This document shows positions 1 to 13,484 of a stretch of DNA of 33,564 nucleotides, one piece after another. Each line of letters opens with the position of its first letter. Within the stretch, counting starts at the first letter, position 1. The stretch lies in assembly GCA_947627895.1 (NCBI GenBank), contig CANQXV010000004.1:1-33564 (forward strand), written 5' to 3'. The position numbers and the translations under genes were made by a program. Origin of the DNA: an uncultured Bacilli bacterium (GTDB taxonomy: Bacteria; Bacillota_I; Bacilli_A; RF39; UBA660). The notes beneath the pieces are model-generated. The model did not search any database and was not told where the DNA came from. It saw only the letters and a program-made list of their open reading frames with translations.

Positions 1-60
1 ATACCTCCCACAAACAAAGTTCACCTTTGTTTGTTATCTATATTATAAATCGGTATCATT
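1..60 (-). promoter_or_regulatory. Leftward promoter, operator-like palindrome and Shine-Dalgarno for a gene off the left edge
   Basis: Read on the minus strand, a TATAAT-like box lies near 41-50. It is followed by a perfect 10-bp inverted repeat (10-19 with 25-34, 5-nt spacer) and then a GGGAGG Shine-Dalgarno at about 4-9, so a start codon should lie just left of the window. The palindrome sits in the leader or transcription-start zone and has no U-tract, so it looks more like a repressor operator or an mRNA hairpin than a terminator. The downstream gene is not visible. Confidence 0.5.
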
Positions 61-145
61 TTAACTAATGATTAACAGTTTTTTCTTGTGTCATTTAACT
101 AAATATAGTATAATTTTTTTGTATAATGAATGGGGATGGAAGTGG

Positions 146-1084
146 ATGAGCAAAAAAAATAAAGAAAAAATTGTTATTTCCAATGAAGAATTAAAACCAA
201 CCGTTTTATATACTATTAAAGAAAGAAAAACTAATTTTATTGGTCTTATTCTTTTATTTGCTATTTTTATTGGCGTTGTTTATTTTTTACCAACTTTATC
301 TGAAAAGTATGAAGAATATAAAAAGAAAAATAATCCTGATATGACAATATCACCTTCGAATCCTACTCAAAAACCAAATGAAGGAGAAGATGAAGACGAT
401 GTTGGGGTTGAGGATACTCGTTTTGATTTTGCTTCTAATCCTAATATTCAAAATGATGATATTTTAGTTAATAATTTTAGTTATACGAATAATGTTTTAA
501 CATTTGATGTTAGTAATATTAAAGATACACCTGTATCTTTACAAAGTAAAAAATATTATTTGGAATTATTTGATAGCACGGATACTTTAATTAAAAGAAT
601 ATTAGTAGGAGAAGGTACCTATAAAGCTTCGGAAAAGAAAAATATGACTTTTGCTTTAACGGCCCAAAATATAAGTTCTTTGTATTTAAAACAAATTATG
701 CCCGACGATTATCCCGAATTTATTTTGCCTCCTAATGAAAATGGTAGTAGTATTCTTTCATGTAGACTAAATGAAACAAATTATATTTATACTTTTACGA
801 ATAATGTTTTAACCCAAATAAATGAAGTAGTTACGCTTGATCAAAATAATGCTAACTATAGTACTTTATTAAGTGCTAACCAAAGTAAAATGCAATCTTT
901 AAATAGTGCTAATGGGGTAACAGTTGCAACTAGTACTAATGAGGCATCAACCATATTTAATTATGTAATTGATCCCGCTTTAGCAGCCATAGATAGTTTA
1001 GAAAATAATAATTATTATGCGAAAACAGCAACAGCTAAAACGATAAATTTTGAAGTGGAAGCTCGAGGTTATAATTGCAACTAA
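146..1084 (+). CDS. Membrane-anchored protein of unknown function upstream of scpA
   Basis: This 312-aa protein has a charged cytoplasmic N-terminus of about 30 residues, one hydrophobic segment (roughly residues 31-52, NFIGLILLFAIFIGVVYF), a Lys/Glu-rich stretch, an acidic linker around GEDEDDVG, and a long Asn/Thr-rich extracellular-looking domain. The reading frame is open from 68. I chose ATG 146 because it directly precedes the MSKKN-type basic start, follows a GGAAGTGG purine tract, and lies downstream of TATAAT-like boxes near 110-127. The stop is 10 nt before scpA and abuts its ribosome-binding site, so the two genes are probably cotranscribed. No family is recognised. A single-pass anchored extracellular protein fits the sequence, but its role is unknown. 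Confidence 0.75.
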   Translation: MSKKNKEKIVISNEELKPTVLYTIKERKTNFIGLILLFAIFIGVVYFLPTLSEKYEEYKKKNNPDMTISPSNPTQKPNEGEDEDDVGVEDTRFDFASNPNIQNDDILVNNFSYTNNVLTFDVSNIKDTPVSLQSKKYYLELFDSTDTLIKRILVGEGTYKASEKKNMTFALTAQNISSLYLKQIMPDDYPEFILPPNENGSSILSCRLNETNYIYTFTNNVLTQINEVVTLDQNNANYSTLLSANQSKMQSLNSANGVTVATSTNEASTIFNYVIDPALAAIDSLENNNYYAKTATAKTINFEVEARGYNCN

Positions 1085-1094
1085 AGGAGGACTT

Positions 1095-1817
1095 ATGAAT
1101 CTACACATTAAAGATTTTGAGGGGCCACTAGATTTATTATTACATTTGGTACGTAGTGCCAAAATGAATATTTATGATATTGATACAGCTTATATTATTG
1201 ATGAGTATTTAGAGTTTATTAATTCTTTAGATAAAGAAGATTTAGATAATGCGAGTGAATATTTAGTTATGGCAAGTGAACTTATTCATTTAAAGAGTAG
1301 GTTAATTCTTAATCTAAAAGATGAAAAAGAAGAAACTGATGAGTATACAATTACGAGTGAAGAAGATTTAAAAAATAAATTAATTGAATACGAAAAATAT
1401 AAAAATGTGACGGAAGAACTACATAAATTAGAAGAAAATAGAAGCGAATATTATACGAAAGTACCGGAGGCTTTAAGTGAATATATTGCTTCGGATAATC
1501 TTAATTATGAAAGACAAGACCCGGATATTTTAGCAACTATTTTACAAGAATTACAAAAGCGAATTAATTACCAAAAGCCATTAAGTACGAGAATAGCGAA
1601 AAGAGAAATAAGTGTCGAGGCCCGAACTAATTATATTCGAGATTTTCTTAAACACAGGGATAATGTTAAGTTCTTTGATCTTTTCGAAGATTATTCCAAG
1701 GAATTAGTTGTCGCAACCTTTTTATCTATTTTAAATATGTGTAAGGGTGGCGAAATATTATTATTACAAAATCGAAATTTTTCCGATATTTTAATCAAGA
1801 AGGTGGAACATGAATAA
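1095..1817 (+). CDS. scpA: Segregation and condensation protein A (ScpA, kleisin)
   Basis: This 240-aa protein is the kleisin subunit that bridges SMC heads in the bacterial condensin and works with ScpB in chromosome compaction and segregation. The N-terminus carries the family hallmark FEGPLDLLLHL (residues 8-18), followed by the helical SMC-neck-binding region with IDEYLEF and ASEYLVMASELIHLKSR. The C-terminal part (about 165-240) is the winged-helix region. The length is typical. The frame is open from 1050, but ATG 1095 is preceded by a perfect AAAGGAGG (1083-1090), which fixes the start. Its 3' end overlaps scpB by 8 nt, the usual coupled arrangement in Firmicutes. Confidence 0.96.
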   Translation: MNLHIKDFEGPLDLLLHLVRSAKMNIYDIDTAYIIDEYLEFINSLDKEDLDNASEYLVMASELIHLKSRLILNLKDEKEETDEYTITSEEDLKNKLIEYEKYKNVTEELHKLEENRSEYYTKVPEALSEYIASDNLNYERQDPDILATILQELQKRINYQKPLSTRIAKREISVEARTNYIRDFLKHRDNVKFFDLFEDYSKELVVATFLSILNMCKGGEILLLQNRNFSDILIKKVEHE

Positions 1818-2367
1818 ACAAGCAATTTTAGAAGGTTTACTTTTTATCGTTGGGGATGAAGGCCTAACAATTGAAGAGATAAGTAAAAATTTAGAAATTG
1901 ATGATAAGGAAGCTCAAGAATTATTAAAGGCTTTACAAGACGAATATAGTCAAGATTTTCATGGGCTTCGCATTAGTTTTTTAGGTGGTAAATTTAAATT
2001 AACAACGAAGAAAGAACATAAAGATTTCTATCAAAAAGTGCTTATGCAAGAAAAAAATAACTTCTTAAGTCAAGCGGCATTAGAAACTTTAGCCATAATT
2101 GCCTATAATCAACCTATTACCAGAGCGGAAGTCGATGAATTAAGAGGAATTGCATCTGTTAATATGATAAGAAAATTAGTTGCCAAAGACTTAGTAAAGG
2201 TAAGTGGTAAAAGTTCGTTGCCAGGTAAACCCAACCTTTATCGCACTACACTATTCTTCTTAGATTATTTTGGTCTATCTTCTTTAGAGGATTTACCAAC
2301 AATTAAAGAATTAGAAAATATTGAAAATGATGCTGATCTTTTCACCTCTAATTATAAAGAATCATAG
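1810..2367 (+). CDS. scpB: Segregation and condensation protein B (ScpB)
   Basis: This 185-aa protein has two winged-helix domains and binds the ScpA kleisin as a dimer within the SMC condensin. It opens with the typical ILEGLLFIVGDEGLT. The central LETLAIIAYNQPITRAEVDELRGI (about residues 94-117) and the following KLVAKDLVKVSGKSSLPGKP are strongly diagnostic. Start ATG 1810 lies inside the end of scpA, with an AAGGTGG ribosome-binding site in the scpA coding sequence, so translation is coupled. The stop codon TAG shares its last two bases with the left arm of the terminator at 2366-2396. Confidence 0.96.
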   Translation: MNKQAILEGLLFIVGDEGLTIEEISKNLEIDDKEAQELLKALQDEYSQDFHGLRISFLGGKFKLTTKKEHKDFYQKVLMQEKNNFLSQAALETLAIIAYNQPITRAEVDELRGIASVNMIRKLVAKDLVKVSGKSSLPGKPNLYRTTLFFLDYFGLSSLEDLPTIKELENIENDADLFTSNYKES

Positions 2368-2396
2368 TAACTTAGTAATTTTAAGTTACTTTTTTT
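2366..2396 (+). terminator. Intrinsic terminator of the scpAB operon
   Basis: A perfect 9-bp stem, AGTAACTTA (2366-2374) with TAAGTTACT (2382-2390), is followed by six T residues. The left arm begins within the scpB stop codon. Confidence 0.85.
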
Positions 2397-2403
2397 GATA
2401 AGT

Positions 2404-2413
2404 ATGTTATAAT
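2404..2413 (+). promoter_or_regulatory. Extended -10 promoter of tRNA-Leu
   Basis: ATG-T-TATAAT gives a TGn extension and a consensus -10 at 2408-2413, 14 nt before the tRNA 5' end and just after the scpB terminator. No good -35 is seen. Confidence 0.6.
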
Positions 2414-2426
2414 TATTTCGATATTT

Positions 2427-2513
2427 GCTTGTGTGGCGGAATTGGTAGACGCGCTGGACTCAAAATCCAGTGGTAGCAATATCATGTGGGTTCGAGTCCC
2501 ACCACAAGCACCA
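2427..2513 (+). tRNA. tRNA-Leu (anticodon CAA)
   Basis: This is an 87-nt type II tRNA. The acceptor stem is GCTTGTG (2427-2433) paired with CACAAGC (2503-2509), with discriminator A and an encoded CCA. The anticodon stem is CTGGA/TCCAG with loop CTCAAAA, which reads UUG codons. There is a long variable arm, and the T-arm is GTGGG-TTCGAGT-CCCAC. It is a plausible attachment site for the accessory DNA downstream. Confidence 0.97.
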
Positions 2514-2525
2514 AATTGATATGAT

Positions 2526-2560
2526 ACTCGAACTTTTGAATTTGATAAGTTCGAGTTTTA
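2526..2560 (+). terminator. Terminator after tRNA-Leu
   Basis: A 10-bp perfect stem, ACTCGAACTT (2526-2535) with AAGTTCGAGT (2547-2556), is followed by TTTTA. Its right arm is the first part of the terminator-promoter module that recurs at 4312 and 6003. Confidence 0.8.
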
Positions 2561-2584
2561 ATATTCAATAATTTATGATAAAAT
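2553..2584 (+). promoter_or_regulatory. Terminator-promoter module, copy A
   Basis: This 32-nt module begins with GAGTTTTAA, the right arm of the preceding terminator, and ends with an extended -10 TGATAAAAT (hexamer 2579-2584). The distance from GAG to the -10 hexamer is 26 nt, exactly as in copies B and C. It drives the DUF1653 gene at 2607. Confidence 0.6.
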
Positions 2585-2606
2585 TTATTTTAGATAGGAG
2601 GAATAT

Positions 2607-2840
2607 ATGAGAGCTTTAAAAATTAAAGGAATTTATAAACACTATAAAGGAGATTTATATATAGTAGAAGATATAATTTATCATAGTGAAACAGGAGAAA
2701 AAATGGTAGCATATAGAGCATTATATGGAGATAATAAATTATGGTGCAGACCATATGATATGTTTTTAGATGAAATAAATAAAAATGGACAAAAATATAG
2801 ATTTGAATTACAAAAAATAAAAAGTTTAAATGAAAAATAA
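2607..2840 (+). CDS. DUF1653 domain protein
   Basis: This 77-aa protein matches the small DUF1653 family along most of its length: KGIYKHYKGDLYIVEDI, HSETGEKMVAYRALYG, then LWCRPYDMFLDEI. The family is widespread in bacteria and has no assigned biochemical function. It is cytoplasmic by composition, with no signal or membrane segment. A strong ribosome-binding site (AGGAGGAA) precedes ATG 2607, and copy A of the repeated promoter lies just upstream. Its last codons overlap the ATG at 2830 of a KilA-N remnant. The family call rests on motif memory and is fairly firm; the function is unknown. Confidence 0.85.
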   Translation: MRALKIKGIYKHYKGDLYIVEDIIYHSETGEKMVAYRALYGDNKLWCRPYDMFLDEINKNGQKYRFELQKIKSLNEK

Positions 2841-3117
2841 TGAATTTGGATATTCATCATTTACTTTAAGTCCCAAAAGATGTATTGATAGGACAAATGC
2901 CAAAGGAATATATTCTAAAGGTGGGAAATATAGCATAGGAACATTTGCTCATCCTGATATAGCATTTGAATTCGCTAGCTGGTTAAGTCCTACTTTTAAT
3001 TCCAATGCTGAATTTATTAAATTAGGATTATCACAAAAAGAAAGATTAATAAAACTTAATGATTCTGCTAGAAATCAAATGGAAATCTTAAAAAACAATG
3101 ATGGAATAAAGAATTAA
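2830..3117 (+). pseudogene. KilA-N domain protein remnant, N-terminally truncated and internally deleted
   Basis: The 95-codon frame contains the second half of a KilA-N DNA-binding domain: SSFTLSPKRCIDRTNAKGIY, then the GTFAHPDIAFEFASWLSP block. It then jumps directly to a sequence typical of the far C-terminus of such proteins, LGLSQKERLIKLNDSARNQM. In the family, these parts are normally separated by about 100 or more residues, and about 60 residues of the KilA-N domain precede SFTLSP. Both are missing here. ATG 2830 lies inside the end of the DUF1653 gene with no Shine-Dalgarno of its own. KilA-N proteins are typical of phages and mobile elements, so this is probably debris of a lost element. 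A short expressed product is not excluded. Confidence 0.75.
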
Positions 3118-3244
3118 AAAATATTGATAAATACCTAATTGGAATTAAATGAATATTTTAAAATTAAAATTAAAAAACACGCTTGCATATTTTCAAAAAT
3201 AGTAATAGTAATGACAATTAATAAGCTGTAAAGGAGTGACTAAT

Positions 3245-3505
3245 TTGTTAGGAAATTGTTTACTAGGAATTGTCTCAATTTGTACTTTTATTTCTTATTT
3301 TCCTCAAACAGTTAAATTATTAAAAACAAAAAAATCAGATGATTTAAGCATTTCATCATGGATTTTATGGGTAATAAGTAGTTTATCTTTTACTGCATAT
3401 GCAATTTGTGTTAGTAAGGATACAATGTTAATATTTGAAACGTCTTTAGAATTATTTTTTTGTTTATTAATTTTATTATTAACAATTAGATATAGAAATA
3501 ATTAA
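3245..3505 (+). CDS. SemiSWEET / PQ-loop repeat small membrane transporter
   Basis: This 86-aa protein has three hydrophobic segments (about residues 2-18, 36-55 and 60-80) and a PQ-loop signature, ISYFPQTVKLLKTKKSDDLS, followed by SSWILWVISSLSFTAYA. This is the three-helix SemiSWEET/MtN3 half-transporter pattern; characterised members dimerise to move small sugars across the membrane, but the substrate here is unknown. The frame can be opened at GTG 3236, but that codon overlaps the AAGGAG Shine-Dalgarno (3231-3236). TTG 3245 has an 8-nt spacing and is the better start. The gene stands alone in the accessory block. Confidence 0.8.
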   Translation: MLGNCLLGIVSICTFISYFPQTVKLLKTKKSDDLSISSWILWVISSLSFTAYAICVSKDTMLIFETSLELFFCLLILLLTIRYRNN

Positions 3506-3721
3506 TTCAAATTTGTTGTATTTTTTCCCTTAGGAGATCAGATAGGTATGAAATGTTTCGAAAAGTTAGAAAAAAATATATAATGAAAATATATTCTTGG
3601 ACTTGAAAAAGCTGTTTTTTATAACAAAAAAATTAGATAATTTTACATATTTTTCAAAATACCTAGGGTGGTTAAACGTTTTGTTATAACGAAATATTAG
3701 TTAGGTAAAGGAAGCGAAAAA
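3506..3721. other. AT-rich intergenic stretch with a possible tiny decayed reading frame
   Basis: No convincing gene is present. An AGGAG (3533-3537) is followed by an ATG at about 3549 that opens only about a dozen codons (MKCFEKLEK then stop), which may be gene debris. The palindrome GTTATAAC near 3683 could be part of a promoter for the gene at 3722. Confidence 0.35.
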
Positions 3722-4354
3722 ATGGAATTGGATAAAAGTTTAATTGAAAGATCCTTAAAAATTTGGAATTTTGATGTTGAACAAATAGACATTGAAAAAA
3801 TACAACATGTACCGATGCATGAATGGAGGATTTCCACTAAAGATAAACCATTATTATACATTGAAAATTTACAATGTTGTGTAGGACTATATGCTTATGG
3901 AAATAATTTTGCTTTTGGAGCTCATATTAATACAGTTATATTTGATAAAAATGAATATACTTTAGATGAAAATAAAAATCCATTATACTGCAATAGATGT
4001 TATGATTTGCAAACAGAATTATTAAAGTTTAATGGTAAAATTGAAGAACCATTTAAAATAGGTATATCACTTGGAGTTACTCCTCCTAAAGATACGGAGA
4101 AATCAATGCTATTAATTTATTATGGAATAGATCAAGTAATTAAAGAAATGAATCGATTAGGAATACCAATGGTGCAACTGGAAAACATTTATGAACCAGA
4201 ATTTATTATCGATGCGTTAAATAATTGCATAATAAAAAGAACTAAACAAAATAAAACTTGTAGATTATTTCGGCATTTTCCCCAGATAGATAATAAACTC
4301 GGACTTTTTTCGAGTTTTAAAATGTTCAAATTTATGATAATATTATGTTGTTAG
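3722..4354 (+). CDS. Orphan protein with a weak CheD-like Cys-His pattern and a suspicious C-terminus
   Basis: The frame codes 210 aa. The middle reads CCVGLYAYGNNFAFGAHIN (about residues 53-71). A Cys followed 15-16 residues later by His in a Gly-rich context recalls the CheD/CNF1-type glutamine deamidase core; this is a weak motif resemblance, not a family assignment. The last 25 or so residues are odd: codons from about 4295 read through a hairpin terminator (4295-4317) and through promoter module B, giving a hydrophobic tail ending FKMFKFMIILCC. Stops in other frames occur at about 4260-4293, so a frameshift may have removed the native stop. Ribosome-binding site AAAGGAAG precedes ATG 3722. 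Confidence 0.6.
   Translation: MELDKSLIERSLKIWNFDVEQIDIEKIQHVPMHEWRISTKDKPLLYIENLQCCVGLYAYGNNFAFGAHINTVIFDKNEYTLDENKNPLYCNRCYDLQTELLKFNGKIEEPFKIGISLGVTPPKDTEKSMLLIYYGIDQVIKEMNRLGIPMVQLENIYEPEFIIDALNNCIIKRTKQNKTCRLFRHFPQIDNKLGLFSSFKMFKFMIILCC
4295..4320 (+). terminator. Short hairpin terminator inside the 3' end of the preceding frame
   Basis: AAACTCG (4295-4301) pairs with CGAGTTT (4311-4317) around a T-rich loop. The stem is short and the U-tract weak, but its sequence parallels the tRNA-Leu terminator and its right arm forms module B. Confidence 0.5.
4312..4343 (+). promoter_or_regulatory. Terminator-promoter module, copy B
   Basis: This copy starts GAGTTTTAAAATG and ends with an extended -10 TGATAATAT (hexamer 4338-4343), 26 nt after GAG. 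It matches copy C at 26 of 32 positions and serves the gene at 4388. Confidence 0.6.
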
Positions 4355-4387
4355 AAACTAACAAATTTAATAGTTATGGAGTAAAAA

Positions 4388-5137
4388 ATGGCTTTAAAAA
4401 ATATTAAGATTAAGGATATACAAGATATTGATACCAAGTTTTCTTTTTTTCATTACACTAATAAAAATAATATTGAAAGTATAGATATTAATGGCCTTCT
4501 TCCCAAAATTGGAAATAGTGCTACGGGCATAGAAAAATCAGAAAAAATTTTTTTTGCTATTGGTGTTAATGGTGTTTTTTCTATTTTTGATTCGTGGATT
4601 CGTTGGCTAATTGCTAAAAGATTAACAGATTTACCAGGTGAAAAAGCAGATATTCCTTTTTATCGTTTTTGTACTTTTGTTATGCGCCTGCCTTTAATAC
4701 GTTATTTAGTAGCAATTTTTGTAAATATGGTTGTTTGGGTAGAATTTAGAATAAAACCAGTTAAAGTAAAATCATTCAAAATAATGAAAGAAATATTGGA
4801 TAATAGTTGTTTTCTAATATTGGATTTAGAAGATGGCATAGATTTTTCTTATAAAGATATCGATGAGGTAAAAAGCCAAAATTTTGATAGAAAGCTATTA
4901 AAATGTGTTTATGCCAAGCAAAATAAAATGAGTAGTAAAAAAATGGATTATTGGAATATGCATACGTTTAGTAATAAAAGTATTTCCCCATCAAAAATAA
5001 CTTTACTCAAAATTAATAATTCATTTAGTTGTATGGATATTTTGTTATGGATGATTAAAAACAACCCAACGGATTTAAAAATATTATCTCCATATTTGTA
5101 TGAATTTTTAAATTATTATAATTTTTTAGATAATTAG
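4388..5137 (+). CDS. Orphan protein with an ADP-ribosyltransferase-like HYT...GLLP N-terminal motif
   Basis: This is a 249-aa protein. Residues 21-40 read FFHYTNKNNIESIDINGLLP. His-Tyr-Thr followed by a helix and Gly-Leu is a pattern seen at the NAD-binding start of several ADP-ribosyltransferase-fold families (DarT-like and RNA 2'-phosphotransferase-like), so a transferase fold is possible; this is inference from one motif. A hydrophobic stretch, RLPLIRYLVAIFVNMVVWVEF (about 99-119), could be membrane-associated or a buried core. Later conserved-looking pieces are YWNMHTFSNKSI and SPSKITLLKI. GGAG precedes ATG 4388 with normal spacing, and promoter module B lies 45 nt upstream. No partner antitoxin gene is obvious beside it. 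Confidence 0.65.
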   Translation: MALKNIKIKDIQDIDTKFSFFHYTNKNNIESIDINGLLPKIGNSATGIEKSEKIFFAIGVNGVFSIFDSWIRWLIAKRLTDLPGEKADIPFYRFCTFVMRLPLIRYLVAIFVNMVVWVEFRIKPVKVKSFKIMKEILDNSCFLILDLEDGIDFSYKDIDEVKSQNFDRKLLKCVYAKQNKMSSKKMDYWNMHTFSNKSISPSKITLLKINNSFSCMDILLWMIKNNPTDLKILSPYLYEFLNYYNFLDN

Positions 5138-5199
5138 TAGTAATTTACCAGCGTTGTTAAAAATATTTATAGTATATCAAATTTTTATTAATAACATAA

Positions 5200-5904
5200 T
5201 TAACAATCAGTATAATAGTAGTGAACAGTTAATTTTTTTATTTTTTCATCTTCAAGTTCTGCTTTATAACCAGCACCATTTCTATATAATGGTGTATTTA
5301 CATCTTCCGGGCCTTGAACTACAACTTCTCCTCTTTTTTTCTCTTGATAACTTTCATATGCGTCTCCTAAAAAACTTTTCAAAAATGTTTCAAAACTTTT
5401 ATGAATTTCAGAAGTAAATTCTTCTTTAGGAGTTGTTACTTGTTTTATTAACTCTTTTTTAACTGCTTTAGCTGTAACTTTTCCTTTTACTTCAATTTCA
5501 AAAATTTTATAATAATCCTCTTTTTTACATAAAAAACTTAAACAGGGGTCTAAAACATATTCTGTACCATTAAAACTAAAACATATCCAAGCGTGATAAT
5601 ACTCGGGAGTTCTTTTATCAAATTTCAGAGTTCCTCTTTCAATATAGTCATCATCATTTAAAAATACTATCGCTGATTCAGTAGTCTGCCAGCACCATCC
5701 TTCAAGTTTTCCTACAGGCATTAATTCAAATATTGAACCCTCATAATCACCTAAAACTTCAATATGTAATTCACTTAACCTTTCAATCAAATATTTTACA
5801 ACTTTTGAATTTATTCTTTTAGAATGTAGGATTTTAAACTTCTCTTGCTCTGTTAAAGGTTTTTTATTAGTTACTTTTCTTATTATTTCATTAATTCCAA
5901 ACAT
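5200..5904 (-). CDS. Transglutaminase-like / papain-like fold orphan (Cys-His-Asp)
   Basis: This is a 234-aa cytoplasmic-looking protein. Three segments fit a transglutaminase-like cysteine hydrolase core: Cys71 in EGWCWQTTESA, His104 in YYHAWICFSF and Asp119 in EYVLDPCLSF. The spacing is C-33-H-15-D. The HAW...VLDP pattern is typical of the transglutaminase/NAT/papain superfamily, but the exact family and substrate are not recognised. The C-terminal third is Lys/Glu-rich. ATG 5904 is preceded on the minus strand by AAGAGG and by a good promoter (TTGACT, 17 nt, TATCAT). It is divergent from the GNAT gene at 6065. Catalysis is inferred only from the motif arrangement. Confidence 0.7.
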   Translation of the reverse strand: MFGINEIIRKVTNKKPLTEQEKFKILHSKRINSKVVKYLIERLSELHIEVLGDYEGSIFELMPVGKLEGWCWQTTESAIVFLNDDDYIERGTLKFDKRTPEYYHAWICFSFNGTEYVLDPCLSFLCKKEDYYKIFEIEVKGKVTAKAVKKELIKQVTTPKEEFTSEIHKSFETFLKSFLGDAYESYQEKKRGEVVVQGPEDVNTPLYRNGAGYKAELEDEKIKKLTVHYYYTDC

Positions 5905-5934
5905 TTTTAATTTTACCTCTTGTTAATGGTTGAT

Positions 5935-5963
5935 ATGATAGCATTTTACTTCTAAAAAGTCAA
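5935..5963 (-). promoter_or_regulatory. Promoter of the transglutaminase-like gene
   Basis: On the minus strand, TTGACT (5958-5963), a 17-nt spacer and TATCAT (5935-5940) with a TGC extension form a near-consensus vegetative promoter 31 nt upstream of the start codon. Confidence 0.7.
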
Positions 5964-6002
5964 ATTCACCATAATTAGGCCCCTAAGTTCAAATAGAGAC
6001 TT

Positions 6003-6034
6003 GAGTTTTAAAATGTTTATATTTATGCTATACT
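6003..6034 (+). promoter_or_regulatory. Terminator-promoter module, copy C
   Basis: This copy starts GAGTTTTAAAATG and ends with extended -10 TGCTATACT (hexamer 6029-6034), 26 nt after GAG as in copies A and B. Here the hairpin left arm is degenerate and the upstream gene is on the other strand, so only the promoter function is likely. Confidence 0.6.
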
Positions 6035-6064
6035 TTCTATAAACTATGTTAGGAGATGAATATA

Positions 6065-6556
6065 ATGAAACCTATAATTAGAAAAAGAAAGATAGAAGAT
6101 TCTACGGAATTAGCCCATTCTATTGCGGTTGTTTGGAATACAACATATAAAGGAATAGTTGATGACGATTATTTAAAGGGATTTTTTGACCATGAAAAAG
6201 AAACGGCTGAAAAATTAAAAAATAATATAAACAAACAACCAGATTACTATGTTTTAACTTTACAAGATAAAATAATTGGCTGGATTTATTATACTTTAGA
6301 TAGTGAAAAGGTTGATGATGCAGCCGAAATTCATGCTTTATATCTTTTAAAAGAATATCAAGGAAATGGTTATGGTAGATTGTTATATGAATATGCCGTT
6401 AATAATATTGTAAAAAAAGGAATAAAAAATTTAATTATTGGCTGTTTAGATGGCAATCCCTCTAATGAATTTTATAAACATCTAGGTGGAAAGTATATAG
6501 GTAATAATTTATTTAGAGATAAATATCTAGAAAACATATATTTATTTGAATTATAA
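6065..6556 (+). CDS. GNAT-family N-acetyltransferase
   Basis: This 163-aa single-domain protein has the GNAT acetyl-CoA-binding motif A: IHALYLLKEYQGNGYGRLLY (Q-x-x-G-x-G), followed by helix AVNNIVKKG and the motif B segment NPSNEFYKHLGGKYIG. The N-terminal IIRKRKIEDSTELA and VWNTTYKGIV are typical of stand-alone GNAT enzymes that acetylate small amines or protein N-termini; the substrate is unknown. The frame has an ATG at 6056, but it abuts the AGGAG (6051-6055). ATG 6065 has 9-nt spacing and is chosen. The gene has promoter module C and faces the minus-strand gene at 6574. Confidence 0.88.
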   Translation: MKPIIRKRKIEDSTELAHSIAVVWNTTYKGIVDDDYLKGFFDHEKETAEKLKNNINKQPDYYVLTLQDKIIGWIYYTLDSEKVDDAAEIHALYLLKEYQGNGYGRLLYEYAVNNIVKKGIKNLIIGCLDGNPSNEFYKHLGGKYIGNNLFRDKYLENIYLFEL

Positions 6557-6573
6557 ATCAAAAATATAACTTT

Positions 6574-7020
6574 TTATTTTAAGTAAGGAGTGTAAGATAA
6601 GTACTCTTTATTTTCTTCTTTAATCCAAAAACCAAAGCGACCATTTATTTTAATGGGTTGTTTTAAAGGTGTAAATTTATGATTTTTTGTATCAGAGGAT
6701 TCTGCGCCTTCAGAAATAGATGCGGTAATATGCGGTATTTTTAACTTTTTAGAATCTTGTTCATCATAATTTAAATAATATGGTAATAGTTTATCAGGTA
6801 TTTTAATTTCAAAACCACTATTATGGTTATCATTGCCATAACCAATAAGTGTAACCTCAAACTCTTGACCAACTAAATTATTAAATATTTCTTCTTTACT
6901 AGGATGATATTTAAAAATACAATGAATCTCATCATTAACTAATGCCAAAGTTTTAGTCTCTAACGAATGAATTAATTCAACTGTTTTTTGATCAAAAAAG
7001 ATTCCTTCATAACTTACCAT
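6574..7020 (-). CDS. Orphan protein, possible 2H phosphoesterase-like fold
   Basis: This 148-aa protein shows HCIFKYHPS at residues 33-41, LIGYGNDNHNSGFEIKIP at about 58-75, PHITASISEG at 96-105 and a GRFGFWI end. An HIT segment plus an upstream His about 60 residues earlier resembles the two His-x-Thr/Ser motifs of 2H phosphoesterases (2'-5' RNA ligase and cyclic phosphodiesterase superfamily), but the first motif would be HCI or HPS, so the assignment is tentative. ATG 7020 follows a strong AAAGGAG on the minus strand. It converges on the GNAT gene with only 17 nt between the stops. Confidence 0.6.
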   Translation of the reverse strand: MVSYEGIFFDQKTVELIHSLETKTLALVNDEIHCIFKYHPSKEEIFNNLVGQEFEVTLIGYGNDNHNSGFEIKIPDKLLPYYLNYDEQDSKKLKIPHITASISEGAESSDTKNHKFTPLKQPIKINGRFGFWIKEENKEYLSYTPYLK

Positions 7021-7079
7021 AGTTTTCTCCTTTAATTTAAAATTATTTTATAACACTAAAAGAAAAACTAAGGAATTTC

Positions 7080-7107
7080 TTGCAATTAATTAGTTTTTTT
7101 GTATAAT
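7080..7107 (+). promoter_or_regulatory. Promoter of the 691-aa orphan gene
   Basis: TTGCAA (7080-7085), a 16-nt spacer containing a T7 run, and TATAAT (7102-7107) lie 25 nt upstream of the start codon at 7133. Confidence 0.7.
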
Positions 7108-7132
7108 AATTAATAACGAAAGAAGGGTAGCA

Positions 7133-9208
7133 ATGGTTCTTACTAATCCTTATTATGCTTTATTAGATACATATAATGGTAATATAAATAAGTTATTTCA
7201 GAGTAATGTTAGCAGCAAATATAATATTACTGCAGAAGAAAAAAATAATTTATTAAATTGTAATTGCTTTAATTTAGTAAGCACTTGCCAATTAGAAAGT
7301 GGGGTTCTTTTAAAAGAGATAAGATATGTTGGAACTTTAACTTTTAGTTTTGATTATATTGCTAATGAAGTATATGTTTCAAAAATTCCTTATGTTTTAT
7401 TTATGAATACTAAAATACCCGTATTTACTAGTGATATTGCTAAAATTATTAAAGATATATTAATAAAATATGGAATTAGGGATTTTAGAATTAGTTTTAA
7501 AGATCAGCTTTTACCACTGGCTATTGATACTAAAGTAGAGGATATAATCCCTTCAATTAAAGATACCACTAATTATCGTTTAGTTATGCTTATTTTAAAT
7601 AAATTAGTTCAAGAAAAAAAGCAAATAATGAAGAATACTAAACATTTTCAAGATCAACAAAGACGACTTGAAGAAAGTAGGGAAAGAGCCCTAACTCAAA
7701 AAAGAAAAATAAAAGGTTTAGATCCTCAAGATTTTGTTTCTCTAACTGAATTTCAAAAAGAATTAAATCAAAAATTAATTAGCATTTGGCAAAATAAAAT
7801 TAAAAATATTAAAAGACATTTACAAATAAATCGTAGAAAATACCTAACTTATTTAGAAAAGGGAAGTCCAGAAAATTTTGGAGATACTTTAGAATTAGCC
7901 ATTATCGAAAAATTAGGAAAAGAAAATAATAGGAGTTCCTTCGAGAATTTACTTGCAAGAGAAACTAAACTTTCACCGGAAGTAAATCGAATGCTTAAAT
8001 TAAGACAATATTTTTATGATCATATTTTAGATGATACTATAAATAATAAACAAAACTTAAATAGAGCTTGTCGTTATATTTTAGATTATGATTTGCATTC
8101 GCCCAAAGGAGTTTTAGAATCGATTAATAAAGCTCGAGGGGAAGACGATTTAAAAAAAACAGCGCAAAAAATGGACTTATCTTATCAAGAAGTTAGTCCT
8201 TATATTTTTTATGAACTTATTTTAAGAGATTTTTTTGCCTCAGCAAGTAAACATCCCATATTTAGTAAGCAATATGAACAAGTGATGGATTTATGTAGGC
8301 ATTATCAAAACGATTTCTTCATGGTGGCTCATGCTATGAAAAGAGCCAAATTTGATCTTAAACCTTGGGAGTTGGTAACTGCAATTGCCAGTTTAGAACA
8401 ACAACTTACTTATTACCAAAATCTTCTTAAAAATCCTAAAGAAGCAATTTTAAAATTTTATAAAACTAGTAAAGTCTGGGGTAGTATTATGTTGCTTTCT
8501 TATTGGAAAAGAATATATATTGATACCTATGGTTCTAAAGAAACTCCTGAAACCTTTGGTTTATTCATGATTCAAAAAGGAGTTAAAACTATTGATTATG
8601 AAAATATCATGATGTTTTGGGAAAATCCGCGGAATCAAGAAAAACCTTGGGAAAAGAAAGATAGGTCGCCAAAGTTTTTTGAATGTACGAGATTAATGGT
8701 AACAATACCACATTCTTTATCTTATTTAGAAATTGAAAAACTAATTGATTATAGTTATAAAACAGGCGAAATGTTAAATTTTATTTGTGAGGGTATTGAT
8801 GTTGCCATTATAGTAAAGAAAATTTTAATTAAAAAGAGTGTTTCTGCGTATGTGTCGGGTCAAGAATATTTTAAAAATTGGTGTTTTGTAAATATTGACC
8901 CAACTTATTTTGAGTCTTTTATGGTGGATACTCCTAATAGTAAAACTTTATGGCATCGTTATGATTTTAGTTCCGATTATAAATATCATCGATTTTTTAT
9001 TTTAAGTTTTGATTATTTAGTTAAGAAAGCCATCGAATATTCCCGAAATGGGGATGCAAGCTTAGATTATCAATTACTAGATGCAATTCTTTTAGGTAGT
9101 TATGATGAAACTATAATTAAAGATGATGTTGCTAACTTTTATGCTAGTTTAAAACCTAAAATGGATGCATTAACCAAGGAACTAACTTTAACGAAAAGAA
9201 ATAAGTAA
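7133..9208 (+). CDS. Large orphan protein with a coiled-coil segment (691 aa)
   Basis: No family is recognised. The first 150 residues look mixed alpha/beta (for example EIRYVGTLTFSFDYIANEVY and YGIRDFRISF). Residues about 155-240 are highly charged and probably coiled coil (KHFQDQQRRLEESRERALTQ). The remaining two thirds are mostly amphipathic helix, with aromatic-rich stretches such as LLSYWKRIYIDTYGS and NIMMFWENPRNQEKPWEKKD. There is no signal peptide, membrane segment or P-loop. A solid promoter, AGAAGGG ribosome-binding site and intact length indicate a real gene. It is the first of three consecutive orphan genes on this strand, each preceded by its own promoter-like sequence. Confidence 0.8.
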   Translation: MVLTNPYYALLDTYNGNINKLFQSNVSSKYNITAEEKNNLLNCNCFNLVSTCQLESGVLLKEIRYVGTLTFSFDYIANEVYVSKIPYVLFMNTKIPVFTSDIAKIIKDILIKYGIRDFRISFKDQLLPLAIDTKVEDIIPSIKDTTNYRLVMLILNKLVQEKKQIMKNTKHFQDQQRRLEESRERALTQKRKIKGLDPQDFVSLTEFQKELNQKLISIWQNKIKNIKRHLQINRRKYLTYLEKGSPENFGDTLELAIIEKLGKENNRSSFENLLARETKLSPEVNRMLKLRQYFYDHILDDTINNKQNLNRACRYILDYDLHSPKGVLESINKARGEDDLKKTAQKMDLSYQEVSPYIFYELILRDFFASASKHPIFSKQYEQVMDLCRHYQNDFFMVAHAMKRAKFDLKPWELVTAIASLEQQLTYYQNLLKNPKEAILKFYKTSKVWGSIMLLSYWKRIYIDTYGSKETPETFGLFMIQKGVKTIDYENIMMFWENPRNQEKPWEKKDRSPKFFECTRLMVTIPHSLSYLEIEKLIDYSYKTGEMLNFICEGIDVAIIVKKILIKKSVSAYVSGQEYFKNWCFVNIDPTYFESFMVDTPNSKTLWHRYDFSSDYKYHRFFILSFDYLVKKAIEYSRNGDASLDYQLLDAILLGSYDETIIKDDVANFYASLKPKMDALTKELTLTKRNK

Positions 9209-9230
9209 TTGTAAAGTCTATCTACATAAA

Positions 9231-9259
9231 TTGCGCTTTTTAGTAAAAGCTGTTAAAAT
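9231..9259 (+). promoter_or_regulatory. Promoter of the 560-aa transglutaminase-like gene
   Basis: TTGCGC (9231-9236), a 17-nt spacer and TAAAAT (9254-9259) lie just upstream of GAGGT and ATG 9278. The spacer contains a small GCTTTT/AAAAGC hairpin. Confidence 0.55.
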
Positions 9260-9277
9260 GTTATAGAGGTAATACTT

Positions 9278-10960
9278 ATGAATGATAAGTTCTTAATTCC
9301 AGAATATTTTTTAGATTCTAATCCTCAAGCATTACGAGAGGACTTTTTAAAGCGTTTTCCAAAGTATCAAGGGCAAGAAGAAGCAATTTTATTAATCTAT
9401 AGGGAACACGCTAAACACATGGGATTTTTAACAGAGGAAGAGGAACTATATCAAAGTATTTTAGAAAGGCCTGAATATTATACTTATGTCGAAAAATTAA
9501 TCGGCGGGGAAATTCCAAAAATTATTGTGGGATTAGTCTATAAATATTCCGCGGCTAGAATAATAGAAATAAGTAAAGTATCTTTAATTGAAAATATCGA
9601 AAAACTAAAAGCTAAAGGTAAAATTAGTTTTACTGATGAAACAAGAAAGCGTTTTAATAAATTATCTGAAAGTGCTTTTTTTGCGAGCTATATTAAAAAT
9701 ATTGGTAATAAAAAATACCATTTAAGAATTGATGATATGGAATATGATGTACCTATTCCGGTTTTACTTTCCTTTATTTTTTTAGATAAAGACTCTTTTT
9801 ATGCTTCTTTTAAAAATGAAAAAATAAATGATATTAATAGTTTCCATTTTGCTTATCTAGTGGCTCATTTTTTAAAATATGAAATATTGAATAATTATTT
9901 AGTGCCGGATATTATTAAAAAAAGATATCAAGAAATAGTTGATTCAAAGTTAATCGATATTCAAGCCTTAAATCAAAAATATGATAATGGTGGTGACATT
10001 GTTTCTCAAGTTAAAGTTAATCCGGAATTAAAAATGGCTATTTTAAAAGATATACCTAATAATTTAACTCTTTTAGAAAAAAGTATTTTTATTTATTTAA
10101 GAATGTGTGATTTACTTACCTATGATGATGAATATTATGTTTTTGATCAAAGAGGGGAAGTTGTTAAAAAGCACGCTGATATAAATCATATTAGGGAAAT
10201 AAGTCCCACGAATAATCTAGTAGTTTGTTATGAATTCGCCGCCATTTATGCTTTTCTTTTACGCGAATACAATATTCCTTTAGAAATTCGGTATGGAGAA
10301 AATAAAAAAAATTATGGCAGTGAACATGCTTTTTTAGAATATCGGATTTCTAAATATATGGTATCAGCTGATGCTTTCACGGGAATTCTTAATGGCGATG
10401 TTTTTTATGTTAAAGTAGGTAAGCCTTTGGTTGGTTTAGAGTGCATTAATGAAAATGCCGAAACTAGTAAGGAATTTATGGAAATTGAACAACAAGTATA
10501 TGATCTATTTTTAAAATTAAAAATTCAATCTGAAGAATTAAAAAGCCCTTATACCGAAATGTTGCCAGAAGTTATAGATAAAACTTTTGAAGAAAGAATG
10601 CAGATACTCGCTTCTAAAATAAATGATACTCCTTATACAGGTATGACGCCAATGGCTTATTTAATTAGTTTAAAACATTCTTTATTTAAAGATAAGGAAA
10701 TTAAAATAACGATTGTTAAAAATAATATAACTAGTAATGCTTATAAAAAAGCCATGGCAACCGCTATTATAACCATAAATAAAAATGGGATAACGGAAGA
10801 TAGTTCAAATAATAGTTACTTTATCTATGATGAAGAAGGTTATTTAAGACCAATAACAATTACCGAATTACGCCGTAATTTTCAAGAAAAAATATATCAA
10901 TATGTAAGTCGTTATGACCCGCTTATCCCAGGCCTTAATTATAGTGGTCGAGGATTCTAA
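9278..10960 (+). CDS. Large orphan with a transglutaminase-like Cys-His-Asp core (560 aa)
   Basis: The central region carries a transglutaminase-like pattern: Cys317 in NLVVCYEFAAIYAFLLREYN, His350 in YGSEHAFLEYRI and Asp365 in MVSADAFTGIL. The spacing is C-33-H-15-D, identical to the unrelated-looking protein at 5200-5904. The segment after Cys (helix, then IPLEIRYGE) matches the usual transglutaminase-core order. The N-terminal 300 residues are helical with no recognised domain; the C-terminal 150 residues are mixed alpha/beta with an ITINKNG...YFIYDEEGYLRP ending. No signal peptide is seen, so a cytoplasmic protease, amidase or cross-linking role is possible. Substrate and partners are unknown; the neighbours at 7133 and 11034 are natural candidates. 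Confidence 0.78.
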   Translation: MNDKFLIPEYFLDSNPQALREDFLKRFPKYQGQEEAILLIYREHAKHMGFLTEEEELYQSILERPEYYTYVEKLIGGEIPKIIVGLVYKYSAARIIEISKVSLIENIEKLKAKGKISFTDETRKRFNKLSESAFFASYIKNIGNKKYHLRIDDMEYDVPIPVLLSFIFLDKDSFYASFKNEKINDINSFHFAYLVAHFLKYEILNNYLVPDIIKKRYQEIVDSKLIDIQALNQKYDNGGDIVSQVKVNPELKMAILKDIPNNLTLLEKSIFIYLRMCDLLTYDDEYYVFDQRGEVVKKHADINHIREISPTNNLVVCYEFAAIYAFLLREYNIPLEIRYGENKKNYGSEHAFLEYRISKYMVSADAFTGILNGDVFYVKVGKPLVGLECINENAETSKEFMEIEQQVYDLFLKLKIQSEELKSPYTEMLPEVIDKTFEERMQILASKINDTPYTGMTPMAYLISLKHSLFKDKEIKITIVKNNITSNAYKKAMATAIITINKNGITEDSSNNSYFIYDEEGYLRPITITELRRNFQEKIYQYVSRYDPLIPGLNYSGRGF

Positions 10961-10980
10961 TAATTACCATTTTCCGTCAA

Positions 10981-11009
10981 TTGACAATTAGAAAATTATA
11001 ATATAAAAT
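10981..11009 (+). promoter_or_regulatory. Promoter of the 276-aa orphan gene
   Basis: Consensus TTGACA (10981-10986), a 17-nt spacer and TAAAAT (11004-11009) precede AAAGGAAG and ATG 11034. Confidence 0.65.
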
Positions 11010-11033
11010 ATTTTTGGTGAAAGGAAGAAAAAA

Positions 11034-11864
11034 ATGAAAACTCATCGCTGTTTTAATGTAAATGATGAAGTATTAAGTTTTTATTATAATTTATTAGGAT
11101 TTCAAAATCATGATATTGCCTCCAAGTTTGTATATGATTTTAAAGAATTAAGCCCAACGGAAATATATCATAGATTTCCTAAGAGTAGTGGTAAATTAAA
11201 TGATGCAGTCCTTGCTTTAATCGAAAGCATTTATAATAGTGATACCGAAGATATTTTTAAGCAAAATGCTTATTTTAAAGCAATTAAAGAAATTATTACA
11301 ACTATTTTAAATCTTAATGTTATGTCTTCTTTAGATACGGACTTTATAAAACATTTTTCTCGTGTTAATGTTATTTTAACTTTGGCTATTAGGGCTATTC
11401 TTTCTTTAGGGGTTGAGGGAACCATTAAATATGCCCAATGGATTAAAGAAAGAAATTATGATAAATTATTGATTCCAAAAGAAAATTTACCCGAATTTGC
11501 TTTTTTAATTTTATTGTCTTTACTTGGTAATGAGGATACTCCCGATTACAATATTTTTGTCGGTGATTCTGAAGAAATAAATGAATGTCATCTTTTCCAA
11601 ATGGTAGTCGAATTAATTGATAAAGAAAAAGAAAATGTAGGTGAAATTTATCCTAAAAAAATGGCTTGTCCTTGTAAAGTAAATAGTGGTATATCTTTAG
11701 ATGATTATTTAAAAAATAAAACTAATAATGCTTTATATAAAGCTTATATTAAAGCTAAGTATGAAGATTTACTAGATGTTTCTAAATCAGAAATAGTTTT
11801 TTTGTTGCACCCATATAGTCGTATCTCTTATTCTTTAGCCCGAAAGTTAACTGTTAAGAAATAG
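11034..11864 (+). CDS. Orphan helical protein (276 aa)
   Basis: No family is recognised. It is mostly alpha-helical and soluble in composition, with a Cys-rich spot KKMACPCKVNSGIS at about residues 210-223. The stretch RFPKSSGKLNDAVLALIESI near residue 47 loosely resembles RFPKYQGQEEAILLIYREH near residue 26 of the upstream 560-aa protein, hinting at a shared N-terminal module or distant duplication; this is only a visual similarity. A consensus promoter and AAAGGAAG ribosome-binding site precede ATG 11034. It ends 73 nt before the aldolase gene, which has a separate promoter. Confidence 0.75.
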   Translation: MKTHRCFNVNDEVLSFYYNLLGFQNHDIASKFVYDFKELSPTEIYHRFPKSSGKLNDAVLALIESIYNSDTEDIFKQNAYFKAIKEIITTILNLNVMSSLDTDFIKHFSRVNVILTLAIRAILSLGVEGTIKYAQWIKERNYDKLLIPKENLPEFAFLILLSLLGNEDTPDYNIFVGDSEEINECHLFQMVVELIDKEKENVGEIYPKKMACPCKVNSGISLDDYLKNKTNNALYKAYIKAKYEDLLDVSKSEIVFLLHPYSRISYSLARKLTVKK

Positions 11865-11905
11865 TCAATTTTAAGCAAAAGACTACTTATTTTGGGAAAA
11901 GTTGT

Positions 11906-11913
11906 GCTATACT
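11906..11913 (+). promoter_or_regulatory. Extended -10 promoter of the aldolase gene
   Basis: TGTGC-TATACT (hexamer 11908-11913) has a TGn extension and lies 25 nt upstream of ATG 11938. No clear -35 is seen. Confidence 0.55.
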
Positions 11914-11937
11914 TAATCTAAAGAGTGCGAGGTTAAA

Positions 11938-12819
11938 ATGCAAGAAAAATTAGAAATATTAAAAGAAAGAAAAGGTTTTATCGCGGCTTTAGACCAAAGT
12001 GGGGGTAGTAGCCGTAAGACTTTAGCAAATTATGGAATCCCGGAAGATAGTTATAAAACGGATGCGGAAATGTTTAACTATATTCATGAAATGCGGTCAA
12101 GAATAGTGTCTTCTCCCGTATTTACCGAAGATAAAATTTTAGGGGTAATTTTATTTGAACATACAATGAATAATAAAGTAAATGGGAAATATACAGCTGA
12201 TTATCTATGGGAAGATAAACATATTTTATCTTTCTTAAAAATTGATAAAGGATTAGAAGATGAAAACAATGGTGTTAAATTATTAAAAGATATTCCCAAT
12301 CTAGAAGATGCTTTAAAAGATTTAACATCCCGAAATATCGTTGGAACTAAAATGCGTTCTGTTATATATGAGCCTAATAGAGAAGGAATACACGCAGTTG
12401 TAACTCAACAATTTGCTTTAGCTAAAACTATTGCTAGTTTTGGTTTAGTTCCTATTATTGAACCCGAAGTAGATATTTATGCAATTGAAAAATTTGGTTG
12501 TGAACAAATTTTATTAGATGAAGTAAAACAAGCCTTAGCAACTTGCGATTATGATGTAATTTTTAAATTTACTTTACCCGAAAAAACTAACTTTTATGAT
12601 GAGTTACTAACTAATCCTCATGTTTTAAGAATTGTCGCGTTATCCGGAGGTTATACCAGAGACAAAGCTAATGCAATACTAAAAACTAATCACAAGATGA
12701 TTGCTTCATTTTCGCGGGCTTTACTAGAAGACTTAAATTATGCCCAAAGTGATGCTGAATTTAACCAAACTTTAGAACATAATATTAATAGTATTTATGA
12801 AGCCTCTTGTTGTAAATAA
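11938..12819 (+). CDS. fda: Fructose-bisphosphate aldolase, class I
   Basis: This 293-aa enzyme cleaves fructose 1,6-bisphosphate to dihydroxyacetone phosphate and glyceraldehyde 3-phosphate in glycolysis, through a Schiff base and without metal. Its length and motifs match the staphylococcal-type class I family: GFIAALDQSGGSSRKTL at 13-29, GVILFEHTMN, IVGTKMRSVI at 134-143, IIEPEV at 173-178, VIFKFTLPEKTNFY with the likely Schiff-base Lys210, and RIVALSGGYTRDKAN. GCGAGG precedes ATG 11938. The cca-type gene starts 2 nt after its stop with no Shine-Dalgarno of its own, so translation is probably coupled. Confidence 0.95.
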   Translation: MQEKLEILKERKGFIAALDQSGGSSRKTLANYGIPEDSYKTDAEMFNYIHEMRSRIVSSPVFTEDKILGVILFEHTMNNKVNGKYTADYLWEDKHILSFLKIDKGLEDENNGVKLLKDIPNLEDALKDLTSRNIVGTKMRSVIYEPNREGIHAVVTQQFALAKTIASFGLVPIIEPEVDIYAIEKFGCEQILLDEVKQALATCDYDVIFKFTLPEKTNFYDELLTNPHVLRIVALSGGYTRDKANAILKTNHKMIASFSRALLEDLNYAQSDAEFNQTLEHNINSIYEASCCK

Positions 12820-12821
12820 AT

Positions 12822-13484
12822 ATGGATATTGCCTTAGATTTATTAAAGACAATTAAAACTCAAGGCTTTGAAGCCTACCTAGTAGGTGGCTTTGTTCGTG
12901 ATTATCTTTTAGGTAAATCTTCTTTAGATATTGATATTTGTACTTCGGCACTTCCCGGGGATTTAGAACATATTTTTCATCTTAAACCTAATGCCTTCGG
13001 AGGTATAAATTTTAAACAAGAAGATTACCAAATAACTATTACCCCTTATCGGGAAGATATGGTATACCGAAAAGGTTTTCCTAAAAAAGTTAATTTTAAT
13101 GTTGACCTTATGACTGATTTAAAAAGAAGAGATTTTACGATTAATGCCATTTGTATGGATGAAGATAAAAACATTATTGATTACCATAAGGGATTAGAAG
13201 ATTTAAATAACAAAACAATAAAAATGATTGGCGATGCTGATACTAGAATAAAGGAAGACCCTTTACGCATCATCAGAGCCCTTAGATTTGCGGTTACTCT
13301 TAACTTTAATTTAGATGAAAATCTAGTTAAAGCTATAAAAAATAATAAAGATTTACTTGATGAGATAAGTGCTGCTAAAAAAGAAAAAGAGATAGCTAAA
13401 TTAATGAAAGAACCATATCAAGAAAAAGCTTTAAACTTAATTACCGATTTAGGTTTAAAGGAAATAATTTTTCCTAAAATCTAA
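12822..13484 (+). CDS. cca: Short CCA tRNA nucleotidyltransferase (class II head and neck only)
   Basis: This 220-aa protein has the catalytic features of class II CCA-adding enzymes or poly(A) polymerases: GGFVRDYLLG at residues 22-31, the metal-binding LDIDIC (Asp36, Asp38), RRDFTINAICMD at 102-113 and EDPLRIIRALRFA at 145-157 in the neck. Family members are usually about 400 residues with body and tail domains that grip the tRNA elbow; these are absent, and the frame ends cleanly in YPKI-like IIFPKI. It may be a naturally reduced enzyme or a remnant. Three tRNAs in the window encode CCA, which makes this mainly a repair enzyme. The start lies 2 nt after the aldolase stop. Confidence 0.85.
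   Translation: MDIALDLLKTIKTQGFEAYLVGGFVRDYLLGKSSLDIDICTSALPGDLEHIFHLKPNAFGGINFKQEDYQITITPYREDMVYRKGFPKKVNFNVDLMTDLKRRDFTINAICMDEDKNIIDYHKGLEDLNNKTIKMIGDADTRIKEDPLRIIRALRFAVTLNFNLDENLVKAIKNNKDLLDEISAAKKEKEIAKLMKEPYQEKALNLITDLGLKEIIFPKI

Follow-up and report, generated by a model that had tools for sequence, protein, structure and literature searches.

Do three consecutive genes from an uncultured Bacilli bacterium, here called A, B, and C, form one undescribed system? The original prediction was that conserved co-occurrence of these genes, which lie between accessory DNA and core metabolism, could define a new protein-processing or scaffold system. We find no single system: A, B, and C are unrelated accessory genes in an interval prone to insertions. 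The conserved association of B is with a small protein, S, and not with A or C. The window that we analyzed is a complete contig of 33.6 kb from a metagenome-assembled genome (MAG) of 1.18 Mb, which is 93% complete. Because all of the genomes considered here are MAGs or possibly incomplete, the absences that we report are provisional.

A, B, and C in a variable interval

The three open reading frames are intact and exactly as first reported; Table 1 gives their coordinates, strand, and lengths. The good ribosome-binding sites are also as described: purine-rich GAAGGG for A, GAGGT for B, and GAAAGGAAG for C. The individual promoters held up for A and C, which are preceded by consensus-like candidates (TTGCAA-16-TATAAT at 7080–7107 and TTGACA-17-TAAAAT at 10981–11009, respectively), but not for B: the 69-bp gap between A and B contains no promoter-like site scoring 9/12. 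(The gap between B and C is 73 bp.) Promoter-like sites are not in excess across the whole region (39 vs. 32.3 ± 6.3 in shuffles).

Table 1. Features of the window, with predicted domains and putative catalytic residues of B
Feature	Position	Strand	Description
scpB	1810–2367		left flank of the island
Hypervariable island	2368–11937		between scpB and the class I fructose-bisphosphate aldolase gene
Gene A	7133–9208	+	691 aa, assigned to no known family
Gene B	9278–10960	+	560 aa, transglutaminase-like cysteine enzyme (predicted), no S gene downstream
B, N-terminal region	residues ~1–230		helical/mixed
B, catalytic core	residues ~255–400		
B, C-terminal domain			
Cys317 codon	10226–10228	+	putatively catalytic, VVCYEF motif; computed from ORF start 9278
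His350 codon	10325–10327	+	putatively catalytic, EHAFLEYR motif; computed from ORF start 9278
Asp365 codon	10370–10372	+	putatively catalytic, VSADAFTG motif; computed from ORF start 9278
Gene C	11034–11864	+	276 aa, orphan
Class I fructose-bisphosphate aldolase gene	11938–12819		right flank of the island

A, B, and C have no significant matches in Pfam, NCBIfam, PADLOC, or PHROGs. All three had been called orphans, which is correct for C and nearly so for A, but not for B, whose family has 59 loci in the GTDB contig collection. In the rest of the genus (29 genomes), the only full-length homologue of A is a protein of 802 aa in G001 (32% identity), and a second, weak match is a 159-aa ORF in G007. 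The homologue in G001 adjoins rpsP-khpA and several sigma-70 paralogues, and neither B nor C is alongside it. (At this locus, L029 or G001:C6:30000-44654, one of the sigma-70 paralogues is RpoD-like, with 1,137 aa and a long extension at the C-terminus.) For C, the only credible homologue is a distant one (230 aa, 21% identity across 196 residues, E = 3e-10), in one genome of the family from a different genus, with no A- or B-like genes nearby. Searching both strands of 243 loci (1.77 Mb) gave no further copy of A, and for C it gave only the known homologue and one chance-level match.

Since A and C are rare and the homologues do not have the other genes alongside, the proposed trio is unsupported. 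Neither A nor C is beside B at any of the 59 GTDB loci. We found no support for a conserved A-B-C neighborhood in the 30 genomes of the genus, in 385 genomes sampled from the order (for B), or at the GTDB loci. In other words, the homologues are scattered independently with no shared neighborhoods, which is the outcome that the original prediction, in calling for a homologue search, had itself named as refuting it. We also considered whether A might be a divergent B or whether C might substitute for S, but comparisons of the profiles (A vs. B, C vs. B, and C vs. S) showed no similarity.

The location of the genes was described correctly, and the case is stronger than was claimed: the entire interval from scpB to the aldolase gene is variable in this genus. 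Both flanking genes are in all 30 genomes. We compared the interval across 14 relatives that have scpB and the aldolase gene on one contig. It spans 9,570 bp in the window and 3.8–8.1 kb in the relatives. None of the window's island genes were found in the relatives' intervals, and each of these carries different cargo (some genes are common to subsets of the relatives). The island is thus a variable one, and A, B, and C make up its distal part.

It is still conceivable that the three genes are a lineage-specific module, newly assembled in the window's species, whose products work jointly even though the arrangement is not conserved elsewhere. The genes are on one strand, with short gaps, and have similar GC3 (0.155–0.175). 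But the arrangement is missing from every relative, the hotspot holds other cargo in each genome, and the promoter-like sites before A and before C suggest separate transcription. We consider such a module very unlikely.

Several other genes in and next to the interval are worth recording. At its proximal end (2607–3505) are short ORFs with weak phage-type matches (a KilA-N fragment and PHROGs), possibly a decayed phage remnant. A 234-aa ORF within the island (5200–5904, minus strand) has a papain/transglutaminase-like C...H...D motif (GWCWQTT...YYHAWICF...DPC) and no match in Pfam or NCBIfam. At 12822–13484, a CCA tRNA nucleotidyltransferase has just 220 aa, vs. 396 positions in the model. 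The copy in the relative G021 is equally short (219 aa; L245:247-906), so the minimal form may be a trait of the genus.

Spread and predicted fold of the B family

Within the genus, several genomes encode a full-length relative of B, as do about 37 of the 385 genomes of the order sample; the 59 GTDB loci are from uncultured gut Bacilli. The MAGs with B-related loci are labelled Bacilli, Firmicutes, Clostridia, or Tenericutes, many are from animal guts, and they include Candidatus Aphodocola. We take the bacterial family in question to be RF39-type gut Bacilli. The B family is undescribed, in that it is absent from Pfam, NCBIfam, and PADLOC.

We considered mobile or defensive origins for the three genes and rejected them. 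B has no relatives in viral contigs or plasmids, A has none among phages or viral contigs, and C has none among viral contigs. As for a defence island, A, B, and C have no PADLOC match, and of 114 proteins encoded near B, those with PADLOC matches are spread over unrelated families.

The first description of B included a transglutaminase-like core, and three kinds of evidence bear this out: a putative catalytic triad, a bridging homologue, and weak fold matches. Of the 61 B sequences that extend to this site, 60 keep all of Cys317, His350, and Asp365. The lone exception (L133) has Ser-Tyr-Asp, and in our alignment the whole triad, Asp365 included, is invariant. We built an AlphaFold2 model of B from 57 sequences, from the window and from GTDB, and the model is confident (pLDDT 89, pTM 0.86). 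In the model, the cysteine is at the N-terminus of a helix and the histidine and aspartate are on or beside adjacent strands. When we compared the model to the PDB with Foldseek, the matches were arylamine N-acetyltransferase, geldanamycin amide synthase, vasohibin, and menin. All of these are weak (E of at least 0.067 and modest TM-scores), and they are consistently of the transglutaminase-like fold class.

No member of the B family passes the cut-off for Pfam's Transglut_core (one of the 57 gives E = 0.047), which lowers the claim that B belongs to that Pfam family itself. But the B profile finds transglutaminase-like (TG) domains in larger proteins, with E values down to 2e-20, and Cys-His-Asp is conserved in most of these domains. 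One of the homologues, L224, scores 24.2 bits against Transglut_core, whose cut-off is 23 bits. Given this bridge, together with the triad and the predicted fold, we place B in the transglutaminase-like superfamily.

The partner protein S and its possible role

A conserved helical protein of about 73 aa, S, is encoded directly 3' of B at 38 of the 59 GTDB loci and upstream of B at one other (L121). In 16 of the 38 downstream cases, the S gene overlaps the stop codon of B by 4 bp (ATGA). S is present in 44 genomes of the order sample, and a TG-like gene is immediately upstream of about 45 of the 51 S matches. We looked at three of the other six: two adjoin EssC, and one is at the end of a contig. 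S has a mean pairwise identity of 47%, between that of B as a whole (34%) and that of the catalytic core of B (50%). The predicted structure of S is a compact bundle of short helices (pLDDT 95), with no match in the PDB by fold or by sequence.

S is often missing. In the set of 59 B genes that we used for a tree, 20 have no adjacent S, and the triad is intact in nearly all of these. The presence of S is clustered in the tree, yet about 11 changes are needed, so losses or gains of S have been repeated (this was a quick tree and many of its forks are weak). For instance, the genome G020 has an intact B but S is gone, at a locus where its sister G024 has S. (In both genomes, B follows genes for proteins of 335 and 774 aa, which resemble pheS-pheT by size and order.) We did not detect S in the window's genome, where gaps in the MAG might hide it, and we regard the window's B as a copy that has lost S.

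We propose that A, B, and C are unrelated cargo, that B is a cytoplasmic protease or acyltransferase, and that S is its cofactor or chaperone, with the window's copy going without. We think that this reading is probably correct overall; within it, we infer the catalysis and the type of reaction, as well as the binding of S to B and the role of S. We are surer that the trio is refuted than we are of this mechanism. The nucleophile would be Cys317, which His350 would activate and Asp365 would orient. The variable N-terminal region would select a specific substrate, either a protein or a small molecule, and B would cleave it or transfer an acyl group on it. In most relatives, S would be made together with B, from an overlapping or adjoining start. 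It would most likely bind close to the conserved core of B and help the enzyme to fold or become active, a role like that of SVBP for vasohibin. The window's B would either work without S or be conditionally inactive. The absence of S from roughly one in three B loci counts against our proposal.

The B-S pair occurs widely among uncultured gut Bacilli. Diverged TG-like relatives of B are also present in type VIIb secretion (T7SSb) loci, which have ladders of WXG100 proteins of about 100 aa, DUF4176, EssC, and sometimes S. Proteins next to the diverged B-S forms in these loci reach about 3,000 aa. The diverged relatives have the core and the C-terminal region in common with B, while the N-terminal ~230 aa differ. 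We also noticed six T7SSb-type loci (L221, L222, L223, L224, L225, and L231) with an internal TG-like domain in proteins of up to 5,100 aa. Another locus encodes, beside EssC, a 199-aa protein that seems to contain two S-like repeats, the second one weak (L230:2371-2967, minus strand); we detected no TG-like gene near it. A broader and more tentative version of our proposal is that B and S are an undescribed enzyme-cofactor pair, used both as a standalone cytoplasmic cassette and, in diverged form, in T7SSb loci, and that the pair has repeatedly lost the partner. This is plausible, although we hold it with less than even confidence.

The homologous TG domains in proteins from T7SSb loci raise the question of whether B might be an exported effector of that system that merely lies away from the secretion genes. 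We rejected a tie between B and the presence of the system, as EssC is above the cut-off in 19 of 37 genomes with full-length B and in 191 of 385 genomes overall (p = 0.86). The other 18 of the 37 include the window's genome, which has no EssC above the cut-off, and there is no WXG100-like gene among the window's neighboring ORFs. Furthermore, B has only the core and the C-terminal domain in common with the proteins from T7SSb loci. An exported effector is highly improbable.

The main rival to a cofactor is that the pair consists of a toxin, B, and an antitoxin or immunity protein, S, in a toxin-antitoxin or effector-immunity cassette related to T7SSb effectors. A compact cassette of two overlapping genes at varied chromosomal sites would fit this, as would the diverged TG-like proteins in T7SSb loci, several of which have an S-like gene. 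Also, toxins with a transglutaminase fold and a Cys-His-Asp triad are known from polymorphic toxin systems (PMC3482391). But such a cassette implies an obligatory partner for the intact enzyme, and the B genes with a full triad and no detectable S, the window's among them, make up about a third of the family. In G020, B has stayed intact without S. Immunity proteins of cysteine-protease toxins are described as considerably divergent (PMC12136450), whereas S evolves as slowly as the catalytic core of B. And full-length B is not associated with EssC. We think that a toxin and its immunity protein are unlikely, and we prefer an enzyme and its cofactor.

Comparison with known systems

In place of a false three-gene system, we are left with a testable pair, B and S, which an uncultured gut lineage carries in dozens of its genera. 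The pair is not contained in the family libraries that we searched (Pfam, NCBIfam, and PADLOC). Like other members of the transglutaminase-like superfamily (PF01841, Transglut_core, and its papain-fold relatives), B has Cys-His-Asp in the canonical order, and in the model the cysteine is at the N-terminus of the core helix, followed by the strands with histidine and aspartate. B differs in having its own N-terminal region, its own C-terminal domain, and a dedicated small partner. The best fold match of B in the PDB, arylamine N-acetyltransferase (NAT), is weak (E = 0.067) and belongs to the same Cys-His-Asp fold class, but its sequence identity to B is only 7–13%. NATs are single-gene enzymes of about 270 aa and are not known to have a partner protein.

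The polymorphic LXG/WXG effectors of T7SSb resemble B in that homologous TG domains and S-like genes are found in T7SSb loci of the same bacterial family. But the standalone B has no LXG/WXG region and no WXG100 neighbors, and it occurs independently of EssC. The diverged copies in T7SSb loci suggest a new class of secretion-linked proteins with transglutaminase domains.

The vasohibins, which are eukaryotic tubulin carboxypeptidases, and the bacterial CPR-C4 are transglutaminase-like cysteine proteases from the same superfamily as B. Vasohibin is stabilized and activated by a small helical partner, SVBP (PMC6937246), while no partner is indicated for CPR-C4 (PMC9108980). SVBP has 66 residues and S has about 73. 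B is not a member of the vasohibin family, however. The triad of vasohibin is Cys-His-Leu, with the leucine acting through its carbonyl (PMC6937246), and CPR-C4 has this triad as well, whereas B has Cys-His-Asp with an invariant Asp365. Also, SVBP is a single extended helix, while S is predicted to be a compact bundle that matches nothing in the PDB, so the analogy between them is functional only. If S is the cofactor of a transglutaminase-like enzyme, then B and S would be, in principle, a bacterial equivalent of vasohibin and SVBP.
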